28,748 nucleotides of DNA. It comes from a virus. How positions within the stretch are numbered: position 1 is the stretch's first letter; each line of letters opens with the position of its first letter. This document shows positions 2 to 21,716 of this stretch, in pieces. The notes beneath the pieces are model-generated. The model was not told the DNA's origin, made no database searches, and saw only the letters and a list, made by a program, of their open reading frames with translations. Made by a program: the position numbers and the translations under genes. The stretch spans positions 1 to 28,748 of IMG/VR virus record IMGVR_UViG_3300028557_000154; one strand, given 5' to 3'.

Positions 2-589
2 CTTGTGGTGAAAGAATACCCAACGGCATCTGCTGGCGCCGGGCACTTCCGTCACCTACTGAACGAACTGAAGCTTAAAAAGAACTTCAAGCCTGACATT
101 ATCTACATTGACTATATGAACATCTGCACCTCCAGCCGGATTAAGGCTGGTGCTAATGTGAACTCGTATACTATGGTCAAAGCCATTGCCGAGGAACTTC
201 GAGGCTTGGCGGTAGAGTTCGAGGTTCCAATTGTTACGGCAACTCAGTCTACCAGGTCTGGCTATAGCAACTCCGACGTAGGGCTAGAGGACGTATCGGA
301 GTCGTTTGGTACTGCACACACAGCAGACTTTATGTTTGCGCTCATCACCACCGACGAACTGGCAGGACTTAACCAACTGCTGGTGAAACAACTTAAGAAC
401 CGATTCAGTGACCCGGATCAGTTCAAGCGCTTTGTCGTCGGCATTGATAAATCCAGAATGAGGCTATATGACGTAGAACAAAATGCACAGTCCGATCTAA
501 TTGATACCCCACTGATGGACAACACTGGCTTTGGTACTCGAGATTCCACCGAAAGCAAGTTCAAATCCAAATTTAGCAATTTTTCATAA
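2..589 (+). CDS. 41: Replicative DNA helicase, T4 gp41-like (C-terminal part, cut by window edge)
   Basis: C-terminal RecA-fold part of a DnaB/gp41-family hexameric helicase, which unwinds the fork 5'-3' and works with the phage primase. Visible motifs include the Walker B-type segment DIIYIDYMNICTSSR, then ELRGLAVEFEVPIVTATQ (the sensor-like TATQ of DnaB helicases), SESFGTAHTADFMFAL and the conserved end VKQLKNRFSDP...KRFVVGIDKSRMRLYDVE. The order and wording match T4 gp41 closely as I remember it. The frame is open to the left edge, so the Walker A half lies outside the window and no internal start should be believed. The acidic and polar tail after MRLYDVE is typical of the family. Identification is secure; the start is unknown. 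Confidence 0.95.
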   Translation, partial: LVVKEYPTASAGAGHFRHLLNELKLKKNFKPDIIYIDYMNICTSSRIKAGANVNSYTMVKAIAEELRGLAVEFEVPIVTATQSTRSGYSNSDVGLEDVSESFGTAHTADFMFALITTDELAGLNQLLVKQLKNRFSDPDQFKRFVVGIDKSRMRLYDVEQNAQSDLIDTPLMDNTGFGTRDSTESKFKSKFSNFS

Positions 590-598
590 AGAGAGAAA

Positions 599-793
599 AT
601 GATTAACTATAAGATGTCCAATGTGCGTGATGGCCTGGCTGACGTACTTGAAACTACCACCGGCTTTATTCTGGGGCGACAGCTACCAGTTGAGTCGGCT
701 AGAGCTCGAGTAAGGCACCTAAACTTTGGTGGTGGTTTTGATGGGGCCACACCAAGTTTCTTTGTAAGTAGAGATTCACTTTCGTATAAATAA
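599..793 (+). CDS. Small hypothetical protein
   Basis: 64-residue protein that I do not recognise. It starts at ATG 599, ten bases after the helicase stop, behind a purine-rich GAGAGAAA stretch that is a weak ribosome site. It has an arginine-rich middle (ESARARVRHL) and a glycine-rich segment (NFGGGFDGATPSFF). No membrane segment or cysteine is visible. Its last codons (TCG TAT AAA TAA) overlap a perfect late promoter octamer, so the 3' end carries regulatory sequence as well. A comparable open frame exists on the opposite strand. The + frame is preferred because of its position directly after the helicase and the strand of all neighbours. Confidence 0.6.
   Translation: MINYKMSNVRDGLADVLETTTGFILGRQLPVESARARVRHLNFGGGFDGATPSFFVSRDSLSYK
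785..792 (+). promoter_or_regulatory. T4-type late promoter TATAAATA
   Basis: Exact match to the T4 late octamer TATAAATA, which in T4 is recognised by the gp55 sigma-like factor with the sliding clamp. Transcription would start about six bases downstream, near 798-800, at the base of the structured RNA that begins at 801. There is no gene start for more than 200 bases after it, so its product appears to be an RNA. Confidence 0.65.
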
Positions 794-800
794 AACATTG

Positions 801-912
801 GTGCATGTAAGTGTGACTCAGATCACACTAGTGGCAAGAGCCCGCGTAAGACGGGTATACTGGAATTAACGGGGAAGCTGCAAGGCAGGTGGGGTTCCTC
901 CCGTTCATGCAC
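801..912 (+). ncRNA. Candidate structured RNA, multi-helix, unknown class
   Basis: A gene-free stretch that folds into a closed multi-helix shape. P1 pairs GTGCATG (801-807) with CATGCAC (906-912), 7 bp. P2 is AGTGTGA (810-816) with TCACACT (823-829) and a six-base loop. P3 is GCCCG (840-844) with CGGGT (852-856) and a seven-base loop. P4 is AACGG (868-872) with CCGTT (901-905), extended by GGAA (873-876) with TTCC (895-898). A small hairpin CTGC/GCAG (878-881/885-888) caps P4. A late promoter lies just upstream and an intrinsic terminator follows at 920. I recognise no known RNA family. It could be a free-standing late RNA of about 145 bases or the aptamer of an attenuator. The pairings are seen; the function is inferred. 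Confidence 0.6.
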
Positions 913-919
913 AACTTGA

Positions 920-946
920 GGGAGGGTCTTAGGGCCCTCCCTTTTT
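920..946 (+). terminator. Intrinsic terminator
   Basis: A 9-bp stem GGGAGGGTC (920-928) with GGCCCTCCC (933-941), containing one G-U pair, has a TTAG loop and is followed directly by TTTTT. This is the strongest terminator in the window. It ends the structured RNA and separates it from the promoter cassette at 957. CCTCCC at 897-902 could pair with GGGAGG at 920-925 instead, which would be an antiterminator arrangement. Confidence 0.85.
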
Positions 947-3710: not shown

Positions 3711-4637
3711 ATGCTCACGTATAAAGACTTCGCGTATGAAGTAAAATCAGAGGAATTGAGTGAAGAAGCCGCTACTGGGTTGGCGGCAAAAGCAGCAAAG
3801 TCTGGCGTATCATTATCAGTACTAAAAAAGGTCTACAATCGCGGTATGGCTGCATGGAACTCTGGGCATCGACCTGGTACTACGCCACAGCAATGGGGTA
3901 TGGCTCGTGTCAACTCCTACATTACCAAAGGCAAAGGAACATACCACGGAGCCGATAAAGATTTACGAGAAGCCACTGCAAGGGATGCAGCATCTGGATT
4001 GCCGAAAAAATACGTAGCGGGCGTGTCAACTGCAACCGCAAAAGCTCGAGCTGCACATTTTAGAAAAGCCGACAAACTGTCTGACCGAGACCCAGCGGCT
4101 TATAAGCCTGCTCCTGGTGATGCAACAAGTAAAACTAAGGAATCAGTTCACACCAAGAAGGCTCGAAAGATGTTTGGTGAAGCAAAAGATTCCCGAGAGT
4201 ATGGCTATGAGGGTGAGATGGCAATGTCTCAACTTAAAGCCATTATGCAGCACGCAAAGAGACTACACGATCTTCTAGAACCAGACACCGATTTGCCTGA
4301 GTGGGTCCAATCAAAGATAACCCTTGCCTATGACTACATTCAAACTGCGGCGGATTATATGTCGACAGAGTTAGATGAAATTGCCGAAGCCACATACAAA
4401 GGCAAGACAGTTAAACTAAACAAGCCTATGGCAGGCGATGTTAAGAAGTCAAAGGTCTTTGTCGACCCAGACGGCGACGGCAAGGCACAGAAAGTTAACT
4501 TCGGTGACAAGAATCTGAGCATCAAAAAGCACATTCCGGATCGTAAGAAGTCATACTGCGCTCGCTCTAGTGGGCAGGGCAACCTCACGGATAAGACGTC
4601 GGCAAACTATTGGAGCCGTAAAGCTTGGGATTGCTAA
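3711..4637 (+). CDS. Multi-domain phage protein built from shuffled small domains
   Basis: 308-residue late-type protein. Residues about 25-75 carry the KSGVSLSVLKKVYNRGMAAW...RVNSY motif, a small domain seen in many phage and giant-virus proteins of unknown function; a related copy ends the protein at 10436. Residues about 98-145 have a KKYVAGVSTATAKARAAHF segment, another recurrent phage module. Residues about 165-225 form a helical unit (EMAMSQLKAIMQHAKRLHDL, EWVQSKITLAYDYIQTAADYM). The C-terminal 75 residues (KGKTVKLNKPM, KVNFGDKNLSIKK, then DRKKSYCARSSG and YWSRKAWDC) form a fourth module common in phage proteins. The role is unknown; a virion or head-assembly role is a guess. The ribosome site is GAGAGG. 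Confidence 0.8.
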   Translation: MLTYKDFAYEVKSEELSEEAATGLAAKAAKSGVSLSVLKKVYNRGMAAWNSGHRPGTTPQQWGMARVNSYITKGKGTYHGADKDLREATARDAASGLPKKYVAGVSTATAKARAAHFRKADKLSDRDPAAYKPAPGDATSKTKESVHTKKARKMFGEAKDSREYGYEGEMAMSQLKAIMQHAKRLHDLLEPDTDLPEWVQSKITLAYDYIQTAADYMSTELDEIAEATYKGKTVKLNKPMAGDVKKSKVFVDPDGDGKAQKVNFGDKNLSIKKHIPDRKKSYCARSSGQGNLTDKTSANYWSRKAWDC

Positions 4638-4990: not shown

Positions 4991-5046
4991 TTTGACTTTA
5001 ATTAGAGTCCTGTTACTATGATAATAGGAAGTGAAAAGGAATACCA
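4991..5046 (+). promoter_or_regulatory. Early-type promoter cassette, copy 4 (R4)
   Basis: TTGACT at 4992-4997, dyad at 5008-5029 with C at the variable loop base, AAAAGGA ribosome site, then ATG 5047. Identical to R5 from the -35 to the start codon. Confidence 0.85.
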
Positions 5047-5349
5047 ATGTCGTTTGCGGCGATTAATCTCTCGGATGATCTTGCAGGATGTTTCAATGAG
5101 AAGGAATATGGGCGGCCGTTCGAATACAAAAAGAATCCAGACATGGTTCTTTACCCAGACCTTCGGACAGGGCGTAACGCCGTCTATCCTCACTTGATCT
5201 TTGTAGGGCCCAGAGGTGATCAAGTTCGTATGGCACTGGTAAAAAAGACCGTGGCGTATGTTGTGGTCGACGAAGTTGACGGCGACCGTGTCATCATTGA
5301 AAAATGGAACATCAAGAATAATCGCACATATCGCAAAAATAACGATTGA
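5047..5349 (+). CDS. Small early protein
   Basis: 100-residue protein that I do not recognise, sole gene of the R4 cassette. ATG 5047 has AAAAGGA about eight bases upstream. Predicted largely beta (YPHLIFVGPRG, VRMALVKKTVAYVVVDEVDGDRVIIEKW), with a basic C-terminus. Its stop TGA (5347-5349) is built from the TTGACT of the next cassette R5, so the frame appears to have been fitted exactly to the promoter module. Confidence 0.75.
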   Translation: MSFAAINLSDDLAGCFNEKEYGRPFEYKKNPDMVLYPDLRTGRNAVYPHLIFVGPRGDQVRMALVKKTVAYVVVDEVDGDRVIIEKWNIKNNRTYRKNND

Positions 5350-5400
5350 CTTTAATTAGAGTCCTGTTACTATGATAATAGGAAGTGAAAAGGAATACCA
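5346..5400 (+). promoter_or_regulatory. Early-type promoter cassette, copy 5 (R5)
   Basis: TTGACT at 5346-5351, dyad at 5362-5383, AAAAGGA, ATG 5401. Only one gene separates it from R4, giving two tandem cassettes within about 410 bases. Confidence 0.85.
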
Positions 5401-10435: not shown

Positions 10436-11821
10436 ATGAAAAAAGAACAAGAAACTACCAAAGTCCAAGATGCCAAAGGTAAGGCAAAAGGCAAAACAGT
10501 ATCGGGTAAGCCAGCAAATTCGATTGACTTCTCTCCTACAACGAATGAACAGCTATCCGAACAATCGCGTGGGGCCGTGGTTTTTGCATTCGGCAGATTC
10601 AACCCACCCACCATCGGGCACGAAAAGCTTGTAAATAAAGTTAAAGAAGTAGCAAAGCGCACAGGCGCCACACCTGCGGTCTTTCTTTCTCATTCACAAG
10701 ATAAAAAAACTAATCCGCTATCATATCAAGACAAGTTCCGCTATGCTAAAACAGCATTCGGACCTGTAGTAGTATCTTCACCCGCAAAGCATGTTATGGA
10801 CATTCTTGGTTCACTACAGCACATTGCCAAAAATGTGACCATGGTTGTAGGGTCGGATCGGGTACAAGAATTTACAACTCTGCTTAACAAGTATATCAAA
10901 GACTATGATATCGACAGTATTAATGTTGTGTCAGCTGGTGAACGCGACCCGGACGCCGAAGGTGTTGCCGGTGTATCAGGCACTAAGCTAAGAGCATTTG
11001 CGGTTGCCGGCGACCTGGCTTCTTTCACTGGCGGTCTGCCAGATAAACTAAAACCAGAGGCTGCAAAGCTGTTAAAACAAGTGAGGTCCGCGTTGACTGA
11101 GGAAACAATCGACGAAGCACTATCAGTAGAGCAGCGCAGGAAGCGTGCCATGATTATGCGCCGACTAGAGCCGCGAATTGAAAGAGCCAGAGAAAGAGCT
11201 CAAAAGCGACTCGCTGATTCATCACACATTCGAGGGCGGGCTGCAAAGAAAGCTCGAAACATCATTCGTCAACGGCTTGCCGGTGGTAAGAAATACTCTG
11301 ACATGACTCCAGGTGAGAAAGTTCAGATTGACAAGCGCATGAAGTCCAGAGCCACCGCAATCGTTAAACTTACTAGCCGTCTGATTAATAAGACTCGACA
11401 GGCAGAGTATGAACGACTGAAATCATATATTCATGGGCATGCACTAGACGCAATGCACACAAGGGCAAAGTCTCCGGTGACAGAAGAACTAGATAACCGG
11501 TTCGAGAAGCACATGACATACAATGTGGTTGATTTGGATTCAATCGTTGAATCTATGGTTACGGCTGCTCTACCTGTGCTGATGACGGAAAAGGAACAAG
11601 GTTCCCTAAAGAATAAAAGTAATAAGTCAGGCTTTGAGTACTCTGTTCTAGAGCAAGTTTATATGCGTGGTATGCTAGATACTTGCGGCGACCGAAGTGC
11701 TGCATTTGATCGAGTCAACTCATTTATCGCAGGTGGCCGCACGGCAATGAACGAAGACCGTGATCTGTTTGAAACTGGAACGCTCTCCCTAGACGACATG
11801 TTTAATGAAAGATTTAGGTAA
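10436..11821 (+). CDS. Nucleotidylyltransferase fused to a basic C-terminal region
   Basis: 461-residue protein. Residues 46-225 are a cytidylyltransferase/NMN adenylyltransferase-type domain. VVFAFGRFNPPTIGHEKL has the (H/T)xGH signature (Thr59, Gly61, His62), and GVSGTKLR (about 179-186) matches the second ISGTxxR-type signature. Such enzymes transfer a nucleotide monophosphate to NMN, pantetheine phosphate or similar; the substrate is not readable here. Residues 225-360 are very basic and helical (RRLEPRIERARERAQKRL). Residues about 395-430 repeat the KSG-x-EYSVLEQVYMRGM...RVNSF motif of the gene at 3711. It is expressed from the late promoter at 10343. The stop overlaps the next ATG. A virion-associated enzyme is possible. 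Confidence 0.8.
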   Translation: MKKEQETTKVQDAKGKAKGKTVSGKPANSIDFSPTTNEQLSEQSRGAVVFAFGRFNPPTIGHEKLVNKVKEVAKRTGATPAVFLSHSQDKKTNPLSYQDKFRYAKTAFGPVVVSSPAKHVMDILGSLQHIAKNVTMVVGSDRVQEFTTLLNKYIKDYDIDSINVVSAGERDPDAEGVAGVSGTKLRAFAVAGDLASFTGGLPDKLKPEAAKLLKQVRSALTEETIDEALSVEQRRKRAMIMRRLEPRIERARERAQKRLADSSHIRGRAAKKARNIIRQRLAGGKKYSDMTPGEKVQIDKRMKSRATAIVKLTSRLINKTRQAEYERLKSYIHGHALDAMHTRAKSPVTEELDNRFEKHMTYNVVDLDSIVESMVTAALPVLMTEKEQGSLKNKSNKSGFEYSVLEQVYMRGMLDTCGDRSAAFDRVNSFIAGGRTAMNEDRDLFETGTLSLDDMFNERFR

Positions 11822-17457: not shown

Positions 17458-19875
17458 ATGATCAATGTAGTAAAGAGAGACGGTTCAAAAGAGCCGTTGG
17501 ACCTAGAGAAGTTTCACAAGGTAGCGGCCTTGGCATGTGATGGTATTAGTGGCGTGTCCATCTCGGATCTAGAACTCAAGACACAACTACAGTTCTATAA
17601 TAACATCAAGTCGACTGAAATTCAAGAGACGCTTATCAAGGCTGCGTCGGAACTCATCACCGAAGATACACCTAACTATCAGTACGTGGCTGGGCGACTC
17701 ATTAACTACAACCTTCGCAAGGAAGTGTATGGCAAATATGAACCAAATCATCTTCTTACCCACTATGTGAAAGTCAAATCACACGGCTATTATGACACAG
17801 AGCTAGGGACTGCATACACTCAAGAAGAATGGTATGAACTCAACGATGCAATCGATCATAGCAGAGACAATCTACTTACCTATGCGGCAATGGAACAGTT
17901 CCGTGGAAAGTATCTGGTAAGAAATAGAGTAACCAACAAGTTCTACGAAACTCCGCAGATGGCATTTATGCTCATTGCGATGACGCTCTTCAGCAGATAC
18001 AAGGAAAATAGACTCAAGTGGGTCAAGGAGTTATATGACGCAGTTAGTACATTTGACATTAGTCTTCCTACTCCTATTATGGCAGGAGTTCGTACTCCAC
18101 AGAAGCAGTTTAGTTCTTGTGTACTCATTGAAACCGGAGACTCATTGGAATCTATCAATGCTACGGCTTCGGCTATCGTTAAATATGTTTCACAAAAAGC
18201 TGGAATTGGTATTGGTGCTGGTTCTATTAGGGCTATCGGCTCTCCCATTCGTGCTGGCGACACTAGTCATACTGGTGTCACCCCTTTTTATAAGCACTTT
18301 CAGTCTGCTGTCAAAAGCTGTTCGCAGGGTGGAGTCCGAAACGGCGCGGCTACTCTCTACTATCCGCTCTGGCACCTAGAAATCAGAGATATGCTTGCCC
18401 TGAAGAATAATCGGGGTATTGAAGACAATAGAGTTCGGCATATGGACTACGGAGTCCAGTTTAACAAACTAATGTATGAGCGCTTTCTATCAAACGGTAA
18501 CATCACTCTATTCTCTCCTTCAGATGTTCCTGGTCTATATGAAGCATTCTTTGCCGACAACGACAAGTTCAAAGAACTATACGAAAAGTACGAGCGCTCT
18601 CCTAAGATTAGAAAGGAAGTGCTTCCTGCCCGGGAACTGTTTAGTACATTTATGCAAGAGCGTAAGGACACCGGCCGTGTCTATCTAATGAATGTCGATC
18701 ATTGCAACGACCACGGATCATTTGACAAACATGCGGCTCCTATCCGAATGAGCAATCTGTGCACTGAAATCACCTTGCCTACGACCCCGCTTCAGGATAT
18801 CAATGACGGTGCCAGCGTTCGAGAGCTTGTCAAGATTCCGTTTAGCGAGTGGGATCAGCACCGTGCTTGGCGAGGCCAACATCCCAATAGCCCGCTTAAG
18901 ATGCCCCAGGTAGCAGACTTTGTCGACGTGACAGATACTGACCATATGTATAGCATGGAACTAGTGGGCTCAAAGTCAGACGCAGAAATCTCATTGTGTA
19001 CTCTTGCCGCGATCAACTGGGGTAAAATCAAGAAGCCATCTGACTTTGAAAAGCCTTGCACTATTGCGGTAAGGGCGCTAGATGCTCTACTTGACTATCA
19101 AGAATATCCAGTCGCGGCCGCACGGAATGGCACTGAAAATCGTAGGCCTCTTGGCATTGGCATCATCAACCTAGCTTATTGGCTGGCAAAGAATGACACC
19201 AACTATCAGCAACCTAATCTGGAGCTTGTCCACAAGTTTGCTGAGGCCTGGTCCTACTATCTAATTAAAGCTTCAGCCGACCTGGCTACCGAACTTGGTG
19301 CTCCAAGAAAGAACCATCAGACCAAGTATTCGCTCGGTGTAGTTCCGATTGACACATACAAACGAGATGTTGACTCTCTTGTAGAACCAGTATATAATAT
19401 GAAGTGGGATGAACTACGGGCTCAACTAAAAGAGACCGGTATTCGTAACTCCACTCTAATGGCGCTCATGCCATGTGAAACAAGCGCTCAGTTAAGTAAT
19501 AGCACGAACGGTATTGAACCACCTCGGGCTCTTGTGTCCATCAAGCAGTCAAAGAATGGAGTTCTTAAGCAAGTAGTTCCTGGCATCTCATATCTTAAGA
19601 AGAAATACGACTTGCTATGGGATCAAAAGTCACCCGAGGGCTATCTAAAGATCATGGCGATCCTTCAAAAGTTCGTCGACCAAGCCATTTCAGTTAATAC
19701 GTCCTACAACCCAGCACACTATCCCGACAACGAAATCCCTGAGTCTGTTATGCTTGGGCACCTTCTAATGCACTACAAATATGGCGGTAAAACATTGTAC
19801 TACTTTAACACCAACGACGGCGCAGGCGAAATTGAAGTTCCTCAAGGTGCTGACTGCGAAAGTTGCAAACTGTAA
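17458..19875 (+). CDS. nrdA: Ribonucleoside-diphosphate reductase, class Ia, large subunit
   Basis: 805-residue NrdA, slightly longer than the E. coli enzyme. It reduces ribonucleotides to deoxyribonucleotides with NrdB. The N-terminal ATP-cone (NVVKRDGSKEPLDLEKFHK) indicates allosteric control. Active-site parts are FSSCVLIETGDSLESI, SNLCTEI (Asn, Cys, Glu of the radical site), EISLCTLAAINWG, the tyrosine pair in KTLYYFNTNDGA and the C-terminal shuttle CESCKL that is re-reduced by glutaredoxin. Between TPLQDIND and EISLCTL there are about 55 extra residues (roughly 450-508) compared with E. coli. AGGAAAA precedes ATG 17458. Promoter at 17184. Confidence 0.97.
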   Translation: MINVVKRDGSKEPLDLEKFHKVAALACDGISGVSISDLELKTQLQFYNNIKSTEIQETLIKAASELITEDTPNYQYVAGRLINYNLRKEVYGKYEPNHLLTHYVKVKSHGYYDTELGTAYTQEEWYELNDAIDHSRDNLLTYAAMEQFRGKYLVRNRVTNKFYETPQMAFMLIAMTLFSRYKENRLKWVKELYDAVSTFDISLPTPIMAGVRTPQKQFSSCVLIETGDSLESINATASAIVKYVSQKAGIGIGAGSIRAIGSPIRAGDTSHTGVTPFYKHFQSAVKSCSQGGVRNGAATLYYPLWHLEIRDMLALKNNRGIEDNRVRHMDYGVQFNKLMYERFLSNGNITLFSPSDVPGLYEAFFADNDKFKELYEKYERSPKIRKEVLPARELFSTFMQERKDTGRVYLMNVDHCNDHGSFDKHAAPIRMSNLCTEITLPTTPLQDINDGASVRELVKIPFSEWDQHRAWRGQHPNSPLKMPQVADFVDVTDTDHMYSMELVGSKSDAEISLCTLAAINWGKIKKPSDFEKPCTIAVRALDALLDYQEYPVAAARNGTENRRPLGIGIINLAYWLAKNDTNYQQPNLELVHKFAEAWSYYLIKASADLATELGAPRKNHQTKYSLGVVPIDTYKRDVDSLVEPVYNMKWDELRAQLKETGIRNSTLMALMPCETSAQLSNSTNGIEPPRALVSIKQSKNGVLKQVVPGISYLKKKYDLLWDQKSPEGYLKIMAILQKFVDQAISVNTSYNPAHYPDNEIPESVMLGHLLMHYKYGGKTLYYFNTNDGAGEIEVPQGADCESCKL

Positions 19876-20420
19876 TGCTCTACACTGGCTCGGGCAACAT
19901 TCCAACTCACATCTACTGCTTGGTTGACTCATCCTTCATTCGAAAGGATGTCAGTAAAGGCGTATTTGAACCTTGCGTTTGGTTTGCACTACATTCTAAA
20001 CCTGGGCATGCCTGGGGTTGCCATATGATGCTTGAGTGTGGTGCTGTGTATCGTGGCGTTCCACCTCATGCTCTGTCGTTCTCTAGAATGCCAGAACTTG
20101 CCTGGGGGCTAAAAGACTCTCAGATTTGGGACTGCTATGGAGATCAGTTCTCTGTTATCCGTTACACGTACCTAGATGGCCAACGAGCAGAACTGCGAAA
20201 GAGTGGCTTGTTTGGGCGCTATCTATTTACTGTGGTTCCTATGAACGATGGCTTTACTATGGAAGCCTCACAGTCAAAAGAGTTTATGTTTATCCAGTTG
20301 GACAATGGAAGATTGAGCATTATGCCTACCAACGAAGTTAGGTTCCATGATAAATCTTACACCGCCGGAGATTGGCCTGATAATATTAAATTGAACTCAA
20401 ATATTTGGCGAGTCGAATAA
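19875..20420 (+). CDS. Hypothetical protein between nrdA and nrdB
   Basis: 181-residue protein that I do not recognise. ATG 19875 overlaps the nrdA stop (TAATG), so it is coupled to nrdA translation; the in-frame TTG at 19863 lies inside nrdA and is not needed. It is rich in aromatic, His and Cys residues: HIYCLVDSSFIRKD, WFALHSKPGHAWGCHMMLE, FSVIRYTYLDG. The pattern suggests a compact beta-rich domain. The histidines and cysteines at about 42-51 (HSKPGHAWGCH) could bind metal. Its fixed place in the nrd cluster suggests a nucleotide-metabolism accessory role, by context only. Confidence 0.7.
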   Translation: MLYTGSGNIPTHIYCLVDSSFIRKDVSKGVFEPCVWFALHSKPGHAWGCHMMLECGAVYRGVPPHALSFSRMPELAWGLKDSQIWDCYGDQFSVIRYTYLDGQRAELRKSGLFGRYLFTVVPMNDGFTMEASQSKEFMFIQLDNGRLSIMPTNEVRFHDKSYTAGDWPDNIKLNSNIWRVE

Positions 20421-20423
20421 ATA
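20416..20423 (+). promoter_or_regulatory. Late-promoter-like AATAAATA
   Basis: Seven of eight bases match TATAAATA, overlapping the stop of the upstream gene and 26 bases before ATG 20450. It would allow late expression of the small gene at 20450 and possibly nrdB. Confidence 0.4.
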
Positions 20424-20449
20424 CTATACTACAACGTGGGGGTATTCAG

Positions 20450-20623
20450 ATGAACAGCGTACGAATTGACACAGACGAATATGGTGATATCGGCTCCGTC
20501 TGGAAAGTCGTTGAAGTTGAGGCCGATACTATTGCCGCCAAACTTAAACTAGTACTTGAAGATGACTATGGAACTCAAGTCACTCGATCTATTTACCAAT
20601 CAGCTCTAACTTTTATGGAATAA
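20450..20623 (+). CDS. Small hypothetical protein upstream of nrdB
   Basis: 57-residue acidic protein. ATG 20450 is chosen over the in-frame ATG at 20405, which would sit inside the previous gene and upstream of the promoter-like octamer. It starts with strands (SVRIDTDEYGDIGSVWKVVEVEAD) followed by a helix (TIAAKLKLVLEDDYG). GGGGG seven bases or so upstream may serve as ribosome site. It ends one base before nrdB. Function unknown. Confidence 0.65.
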   Translation: MNSVRIDTDEYGDIGSVWKVVEVEADTIAAKLKLVLEDDYGTQVTRSIYQSALTFME

Positions 20624-20624
20624 T

Positions 20625-21716
20625 ATGACAATTTTTGACACTACCAAGAATGACGCAACCAAGGAAACTTGTTTCTTTGGCAATCCTGTAAATATTGCTC
20701 GCTATGATAAGATGCGCTATCCCATCTTTGATAAGTTGACCGACAAGCAACTAGGTTTCTTTTGGCGCCCAGAGGAAGTCAATCTTTCTCCTGACAGCAA
20801 AGACTTTAAGTCGCTGACTCCTTCACTGGCTCACATCTTTACCTCAAATCTAAAGCGCCAGATTGTACTAGACTCTGTGCAAGGCAGGGCACCAGTATTG
20901 GCGCTTGGTCCACTTGTTTCTATTCCAGAGCTTGAAACTTGGATTCAGACGTGGACGTTCAACGAAACCATCCACAGTAAATCATACACGCACATCATCC
21001 GCAATATCTACTCCGATCCGTCGGTGGTCTTTGACGAGATGCTAGATACGCAAGAGATTTTAGACTGCGCTACCGATATCAGCAAGTACTACGATGAGCT
21101 CATTGCTCTCAATTGCCATCATGCAGTCCATGGCTATAAAAATTACGAACTATATGCACACAAGAAAGCTCTATGGCTCTGCCTTAATGCTATCAATGCG
21201 TTGGAAGGAGTACGATTCTTTGTGAGCTTTGCTTGCTCTTGGGCCTTTGCTGAGGTGAAACTCATGGAAGGCAATGCAAAGATCATCAAGCTTATCTCTA
21301 GAGACGAGAATGTCCACCTGGCATCAACCCAGCATATGCTTAAAATCCTGCCCAATGAAGACCCAGACTTTGCCGCTCTCAAGGCAGAATGCTATGACGA
21401 TGTGATTGGTATCTTCAACGATGTGGTGAACCAAGAAAAAGCCTGGGCAAAGTATCTCTTCAAGGGTGGTTCCATGATCGGACTCAACGAGGAACTACTT
21501 TGCAACTATGTAGATTGGACCGCGCACAAGCGGCTTACTTCACTTGGTGTAACGGGGCTTCCGTCTGCCGGCGCAAATCCTCTACCGTGGACTCAAAAAT
21601 GGATATCAGGCGGTGACGTTCAGGTAGCGCCGCAAGAAGCAGAGATTTCGTCATATATCATCGGCGGTGTCAAGAAGGACCTGACGGATGAATCCTTTGC
21701 AGGATTCACACTTTAA
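20625..21716 (+). CDS. nrdB: Ribonucleoside-diphosphate reductase, class Ia, small subunit
   Basis: 363-residue NrdB, carrying the diiron-tyrosyl radical cofactor. Iron ligands and the radical tyrosine are readable: LDSVQGRAP (Asp), FNETIHSKSYTHIIRN (Glu, His and the radical Tyr), NALEGVRFF (Glu) and SRDENVHL (Glu, His). This is the E. coli and T4 pattern, so a conventional tyrosyl-radical enzyme. The end (SYIIGGVKKDLTDESFAGFTL) is the flexible tail that binds NrdA. The gene starts one base after the small gene at 20450. A 7-bp stem-loop TGAATCC/GGATTCA (21689-21708) lies in its last codons. Confidence 0.97.
   Translation: MTIFDTTKNDATKETCFFGNPVNIARYDKMRYPIFDKLTDKQLGFFWRPEEVNLSPDSKDFKSLTPSLAHIFTSNLKRQIVLDSVQGRAPVLALGPLVSIPELETWIQTWTFNETIHSKSYTHIIRNIYSDPSVVFDEMLDTQEILDCATDISKYYDELIALNCHHAVHGYKNYELYAHKKALWLCLNAINALEGVRFFVSFACSWAFAEVKLMEGNAKIIKLISRDENVHLASTQHMLKILPNEDPDFAALKAECYDDVIGIFNDVVNQEKAWAKYLFKGGSMIGLNEELLCNYVDWTAHKRLTSLGVTGLPSAGANPLPWTQKWISGGDVQVAPQEAEISSYIIGGVKKDLTDESFAGFTL

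Follow-up and report, generated by a model that had tools for sequence, protein, structure and literature searches.

Does the short stretch behind the helicase gene gp41 of an uncultured T4-like virus of bacteria hold an RNA gene of its own, and what might its product do? The locus lies in a window of 28,748 nt, the whole stretch of DNA that was analysed, which is one strand of IMG/VR record IMGVR_UViG_3300028557_000154. A sequence-only reading had proposed a self-contained late structured RNA gene here, with an exact late promoter, a fold closed by a 7-bp stem, at least three internal hairpins, an intrinsic terminator and no reading frame of note. It named compensatory changes in P1, P2 and P4 among homologues as support for the fold, and uncompensated breaks in P1 and P4 as evidence against it. 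We compared the locus with its relatives in environmental phage contigs and with known RNAs.

Promoter, fold and terminator at the locus

The proposed promoter matches the T4-type late promoter TATAAATA exactly (Table 1) and overlaps the stop codon of the upstream 64-aa ORF (TAT AAA TAA). Seven exact copies of TATAAATA were observed in the window, against 1.25 expected. Given late-promoter geometry, the RNA presumably starts near 798, which gives a predicted transcript of about 149 nt, and the proposed terminator was found as a stem followed by a T run. The minimum-energy fold of positions 795-950 was closed by P1, an exact stem as proposed (z = -3.15, 0 of 200 shuffles as good). The internal hairpins were recovered as P2, P3 and P4, to which we added P5 and the small hairpin P5a. 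The single-sequence minimum-energy fold drew the P4/P5 region somewhat differently, and P4 and P5 were assigned from covariation. In agreement with the sequence-only reading, the RNA is not a coding sequence or small-peptide gene, since the distances separating its invariant motifs occur in each of the three phases.

Elsewhere in the window, near-identical early-promoter cassettes (TTGACTTTAATTAGAGTCCTGTTASTATGATAATAGGAAGTGAAAAGGA; -35 and extended -10) precede small genes. Cytidyltransferase-like genes and the large and small subunits of ribonucleotide reductase were observed at 3711-4637, 10436-11821 and 17458-21716.

Table 1. Positions of the features at the RNA locus and nearby, in coordinates of the window.
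Feature	Position	Strand	Remark
gp41-type DNA helicase, C-terminal part	2-589	+	DNA primase-helicase matches
64-aa protein of no assigned function	599-793	+	RNA neighbour; conserved ...LNFGGGFDG.TPSFF...
T4-type late promoter TATAAATA	785-792	+	exact match
Predicted late non-coding RNA, ~149 nt	798-946	+	promoter, fold and terminator as a unit
P1 5' strand, 7 bp	801-807	+	exact; pairs with 906-912
P2 hairpin, 7 bp	810-829	+	810-816/823-829, loop 817-822; covariation
Junction strand GGCA	833-836	+	GGC invariant; fourth base A, rarely T (alignments)
P3 hairpin, 5 bp	840-856	+	840-844/852-856, 7-nt loop; window fold
Junction strand GGAA	862-865	+	invariant in alignments
P4 5' strand, 6 bp	868-873	+	pairs with 900-905; covarying
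P5a small hairpin	877-886	+	877-879/884-886, GCAA tetraloop; optional
P5 hairpin, A-GG[UGGGGUU]CC-U	887-899	+	887-889/897-899, loop 890-896; covariation
P4 3' strand	900-905	+	pairs with 868-873
P1 3' strand	906-912	+	pairs with 801-807
Intrinsic terminator	918-946	+	stem 918-943, then T run
Early-promoter cassettes	958-1007, 1705-1754, 2641-2691, 4992-5019, 5346-5373		repeated

Homologues and compensatory change

Three IMG/VR pattern scans returned at least 211 family loci in T4-like phage contigs, representing at least 136 distinct sequences, and the unit of promoter, fold and terminator recurs in at least 136 distinct homologues. The scan patterns use parts of the RNA motif, and the P5 loop was part of all three, so that its invariance in these sets is partly by construction; three tests were made that depend on the motif less or not at all. 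Loci fetched by the small upstream ORF alone carried the RNA directly downstream in 75 of 78 cases (best 80 hits), and all 31 distinct RNAs obtained in this way from the best 80 hits had an exact late promoter, GGCA, GGAA and the full loop UGGGGUU. The loop also held in the set fetched through gp41, where diverged copies of the RNA were observed in viral contigs encoding the neighbouring helicase, on either strand relative to gp41. It was kept in every member seen.

A covariance model built without the window (R2) recovered the window with a score of 43 bits (E 8.8e-9 in a search of 0.6 Mb, E-values of this model and of model R1 being from a shortened calibration). Model R2 also found two diverged members, L023 and L024, whose P5 stem reads CTG/CAG rather than CGG/CCG, the inner pair having changed to T-A with the loop UGGGGUU unchanged. 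These two members (L023 at 1330-1443) are without an exact TATAAATA upstream. Some other pattern matches, including L257, L259 and L260, were without promoter and fold and were dropped.

To judge the promoter we used 34 non-truncated, distinct members that had been selected without it. Thirty of these had an exact TATAAATA (0.009 expected per window), and the remaining four had close variants, e.g. CTAAATA or GATAAATA. A terminator-like hairpin was present at the matching place in 124 of 126 distinct members, compared with 5.7 expected from shuffles. Late promoter, covarying fold and terminator were thus found together as a unit, as in a stand-alone T4-type late RNA gene, and we infer from the promoter that the RNA is transcribed and that this happens late.

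Compensatory changes in P1, P2, P4 and P5 support the predicted fold, with many two-sided changes in the three stems singled out by the sequence-only reading. MAFFT misplaces P1 and P2 in wide alignments; pairs in P4 and P5 were therefore located by their fixed distance from anchors, and those of P1 were scored on a trimmed subset. P4 was paired in 815 of 816 cells (100%) over 136 sequences among the matches listed, comprising 772 Watson-Crick pairs, 43 G-U, 0 A-C and 1 other; since G-U is tolerated and A-C is absent, the strand downstream of the promoter is the folding RNA strand. In the trimmed diverse alignment 96% of P1 cells were paired, with two-sided changes at 6 of the 7 pairs, and the figure was 98.9% in the window's subfamily. 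Breaks of P1 and P4 without compensation, the outcome that would have spoken against the fold, were therefore not the pattern observed. The P5 closing pair, formed by the bases that flank GGTG on its 5' side and TTCC on its 3' side, was never broken among the 136 matches listed (A-T 66, C-G 52, T-A 17, G-C 1). For P2, all cells in the window's subfamily were paired (100%) and 3 pairs had two-sided changes; in the wide alignment it had two-sided changes at 5 of 6 pairs and 68% of its cells paired, a lower value because lengths differ.

Taken over 24 diverse sequences, P1, P2, P4 and P5 gave a covariation score of 0.586, versus 0.222 when shuffled and at most 0.106 with slid partners, and 16 of their 22 pairs had two-sided changes. 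Within the window's subfamily 99.7% of cells paired and 9 pairs had two-sided changes. When members were selected on promoter and loop only, 78 of the 79 distinct matches listed also had P4 complete with its six pairs and an intact closing pair in P5. P3 varies in sequence and length across the family, although most homologues have a hairpin there, and it was left out of the covariation count. P5a was 100% paired in the window's subfamily and missing from many other members. The most conserved elements, namely the P5 loop and the GGCA and GGAA junctions, had not been part of the sequence-only reading, nor had the gene order described below.

Neighbourhood and distribution

The gp41 cluster adjoined the RNA in 126 of 136 loci among the matches listed. 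The small ORF was present at 124 of the 136 RNA loci listed, directly upstream on the same strand in 109 and on the opposite strand in 15. Its 64-aa protein family (...ETxTxQII...LNLGGGFDGWTPSFFL...) adjoins gp41 in most RNA carriers, and the protein had no Pfam family and only a weak phrog_29065 match (best E 2e-5). A tight coupling of the RNA to the small ORF was considered and rejected, as five loci (L060, L035, L079, L349 and L379) carry the ORF without the RNA; the two are thus separable. The genes downstream of the RNA vary, and in isolated cyanophages mazG or another ORF follows shortly after gp41. Exactly one copy of the RNA was present in every one of 17 RNA-carrying contigs, the longest of 195 kb. 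One RNA-carrying contig, that of L213 (167 kb; L414, L415, L417 and L418), holds 27 ARAGORN tRNA genes covering all 20 amino acids, and a permuted tmRNA call (tag ANDNAPFAMAVAA) there overlaps a tRNA-Arg call.

In one gp41 lineage (24 distinct gp41 rows) the RNA was observed at the same place on the opposite strand, with its own promoter and terminator; this lineage includes L014, L037, L050, L083-L085, L094, L126, L172 and relatives. A tree of gp41 fragments, made by a quick method and with many weak branches, had the RNA carriers scattered over the whole clade. On this tree the opposite-strand RNA needs one change (a single inversion) and the absence of the RNA needs five, with the cyanophages among the lineages without it. 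The distribution, with its weak branch supports, fits an RNA of presumably ancient descent, one inversion and several losses.

Searches outside the environmental contigs gave no further members. BLAST searches of 50,697 phage records with the RNA and with several relatives as queries returned chance matches only, and scanning 84,980 species of bacteria and archaea for the pattern gave one match, apparently in coding sequence, which was judged to be chance. Model R2, run with stricter filters, had no match at E ≤ 1 in 13 isolate T4-like genomes including T4 and HTVC008M; matches of 9-16 bits by model R1 in T4 and HTVC008M were rejected. The RNA carriers described here are uncultured metagenomic contigs only.

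Relation to known RNAs and possible role

No Rfam 15 family was found in the window at its gathering score, and a search at permissive E of the window and six homologous loci gave chance-level matches only. Literature searches, of partial coverage, returned no description of this RNA. Several structured or regulatory RNAs of T4-like aquatic phages have been described, namely wcaG, manA, PhotoRC-II, glnA and CfrI, of which CfrI is antisense and the other four are cis-regulatory (PMC2864571, PMC9602691). These four are Rfam families, and none matched this RNA. The abiF RNA (RF03085) has been reported in the T4-like cyanophage S-CREM1, where the match covers 37 bases (10531-10567) and is far shorter than this RNA (PMC9964418); identity with abiF was rejected, as no abiF match was found in the Rfam scans of the window and homologous loci. 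The RNA anti-CRISPRs of phages (Racrs) are likewise stand-alone phage RNAs that act in trans, but they mimic single CRISPR repeats (PMC10651486), whereas the RNA described here is a multi-helix fold conserved across a phage clade. What would be new here is the class of RNA; non-coding RNAs in general are already known from phages.

We consider that the locus is probably a stand-alone structured RNA gene of an uncultured T4-like phage clade, whose product would serve late in infection as a trans-acting binding platform or decoy for one conserved partner. Late RNA polymerase would start at TATAAATA, make about 149 nt and stop at the terminator. The RNA would close via P1; P2 and P3 would act as struts that vary, P4/P5 would form the conserved core, and the invariant single-stranded bases of the 7-nt loop UGGGGUU, GGCA and GGAA would be displayed. 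Acting in trans, it would have these bases read by the partner, and the stems drift around fixed loop and junction bases, as is typical of binding sites. The partner would more likely be a protein or RNP, of the phage or of its host, than mRNAs. In two RNA-carrying contigs of complete size, neither genes nor start regions had an excess of the loop complement AACCCCA, a result that weakly favours a protein or RNP partner over an RNA. From these comparisons we infer that action in trans and a protein partner are most likely.

An antisense-type regulator, whose UGGGGUU loop would base-pair with C-rich sequences in, for instance, mRNAs or the 3' end of a tRNA (...CCCCA, the ending of tRNA-His), is a doubtful alternative. 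An invariant G-rich 7-nt hairpin loop and a late promoter of its own are what such a regulator would have, but in the same two contigs neither the full complement nor the shorter ACCCC was enriched in sense genes or start regions.

Most loci have the RNA on the 3' side of the small ORF and gp41, which would suit a cis element, whether a 3'-UTR element stabilising the mRNA of gp41 and the small ORF or a riboswitch-like aptamer with its terminator. Riboswitches do usually have a terminator behind the aptamer; a riboswitch, however, occupies the 5' leader of the gene that it controls, whereas here the RNA's own terminator comes before the next gene in 124 of 126 members, and that next gene varies. 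Two observations make a cis role unlikely: the RNA comes with an exact late promoter and a terminator of its own, and in the opposite-strand lineage it points towards the antisense strand of gp41 and the small ORF, with no sense gene directly after it. The window's terminator arm GGGAGG could pair with P4' CCTCCC, but this was not kept in the few members inspected.

The late promoter, the single copy per genome and the deep conservation of the core bases would also suit a part of a late phage machine. The phi29-type pRNA is a phage RNA of similar size, with helix-closed ends and hairpin arms; it belongs to a different phage group, and we use the likeness as a working analogy only. We regard an RNA for packaging or capsid assembly of this kind, or a putative catalytic RNA, as quite improbable: many T4-like relatives, including cyanophages and T4, manage without the RNA, and the family alignments contain no invariant partner loop for ring formation, i.e. 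no C-rich loop complementary to UGGGGUU as in pRNA. A wider and tentative form of the idea, to which we give a low probability, is that of an ancient, clade-wide RNA that may be catalytic, or may belong to a late machine for packaging, assembly, host shut-off or counter-defence, with UGGGGUU, GGCA and GGAA as its putative active site.

A degenerate tRNA or a relative of T4 RNA C or D is extremely improbable and failed the tests made. The four-helix outline, the 7-bp outer stem and the UA linker after P1 recall a tRNA, but the RNA is without a 3' CCA and a T arm with TTCRA, and ARAGORN made no tRNA call in the window, nor at the RNA in any of 15 homologous loci, in keeping with the sequence-only reading, which had set a tRNA aside. 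The T4 stable RNAs C and D (species 1 and 2) are likewise small, stable, structured RNAs of a T4-type phage without assigned function. They differ in being encoded at the end of a tRNA cluster and, by inspection, in lacking the GGCA/GGAA/UGGGGUU core, with a tRNA-like T arm in RNA C; model R2 matched neither of them, nor the rest of the T4 genome, at E ≤ 1. A DNA element (an origin, recombination or packaging site) whose inverted repeats merely resemble an RNA fold would suit the fixed place beside replication genes but is as improbable, given that the 43 G-U and 0 A-C pairs of P4 mark an RNA strand and that promoter and terminator flank the fold in the matching direction.

It is rare for a structured RNA to keep invariant bases throughout a virus clade that has diverged deeply, and to our knowledge no such late RNA is known in T4, the textbook phage. 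The abundance of the RNA in environmental T4-like contigs, set against the lack of any match in the isolates tested, would explain why it has escaped notice. Its fold, promoter, terminator, single copy and invariant loop offer precise mutations, by which the roles of late phage RNAs would become directly testable.
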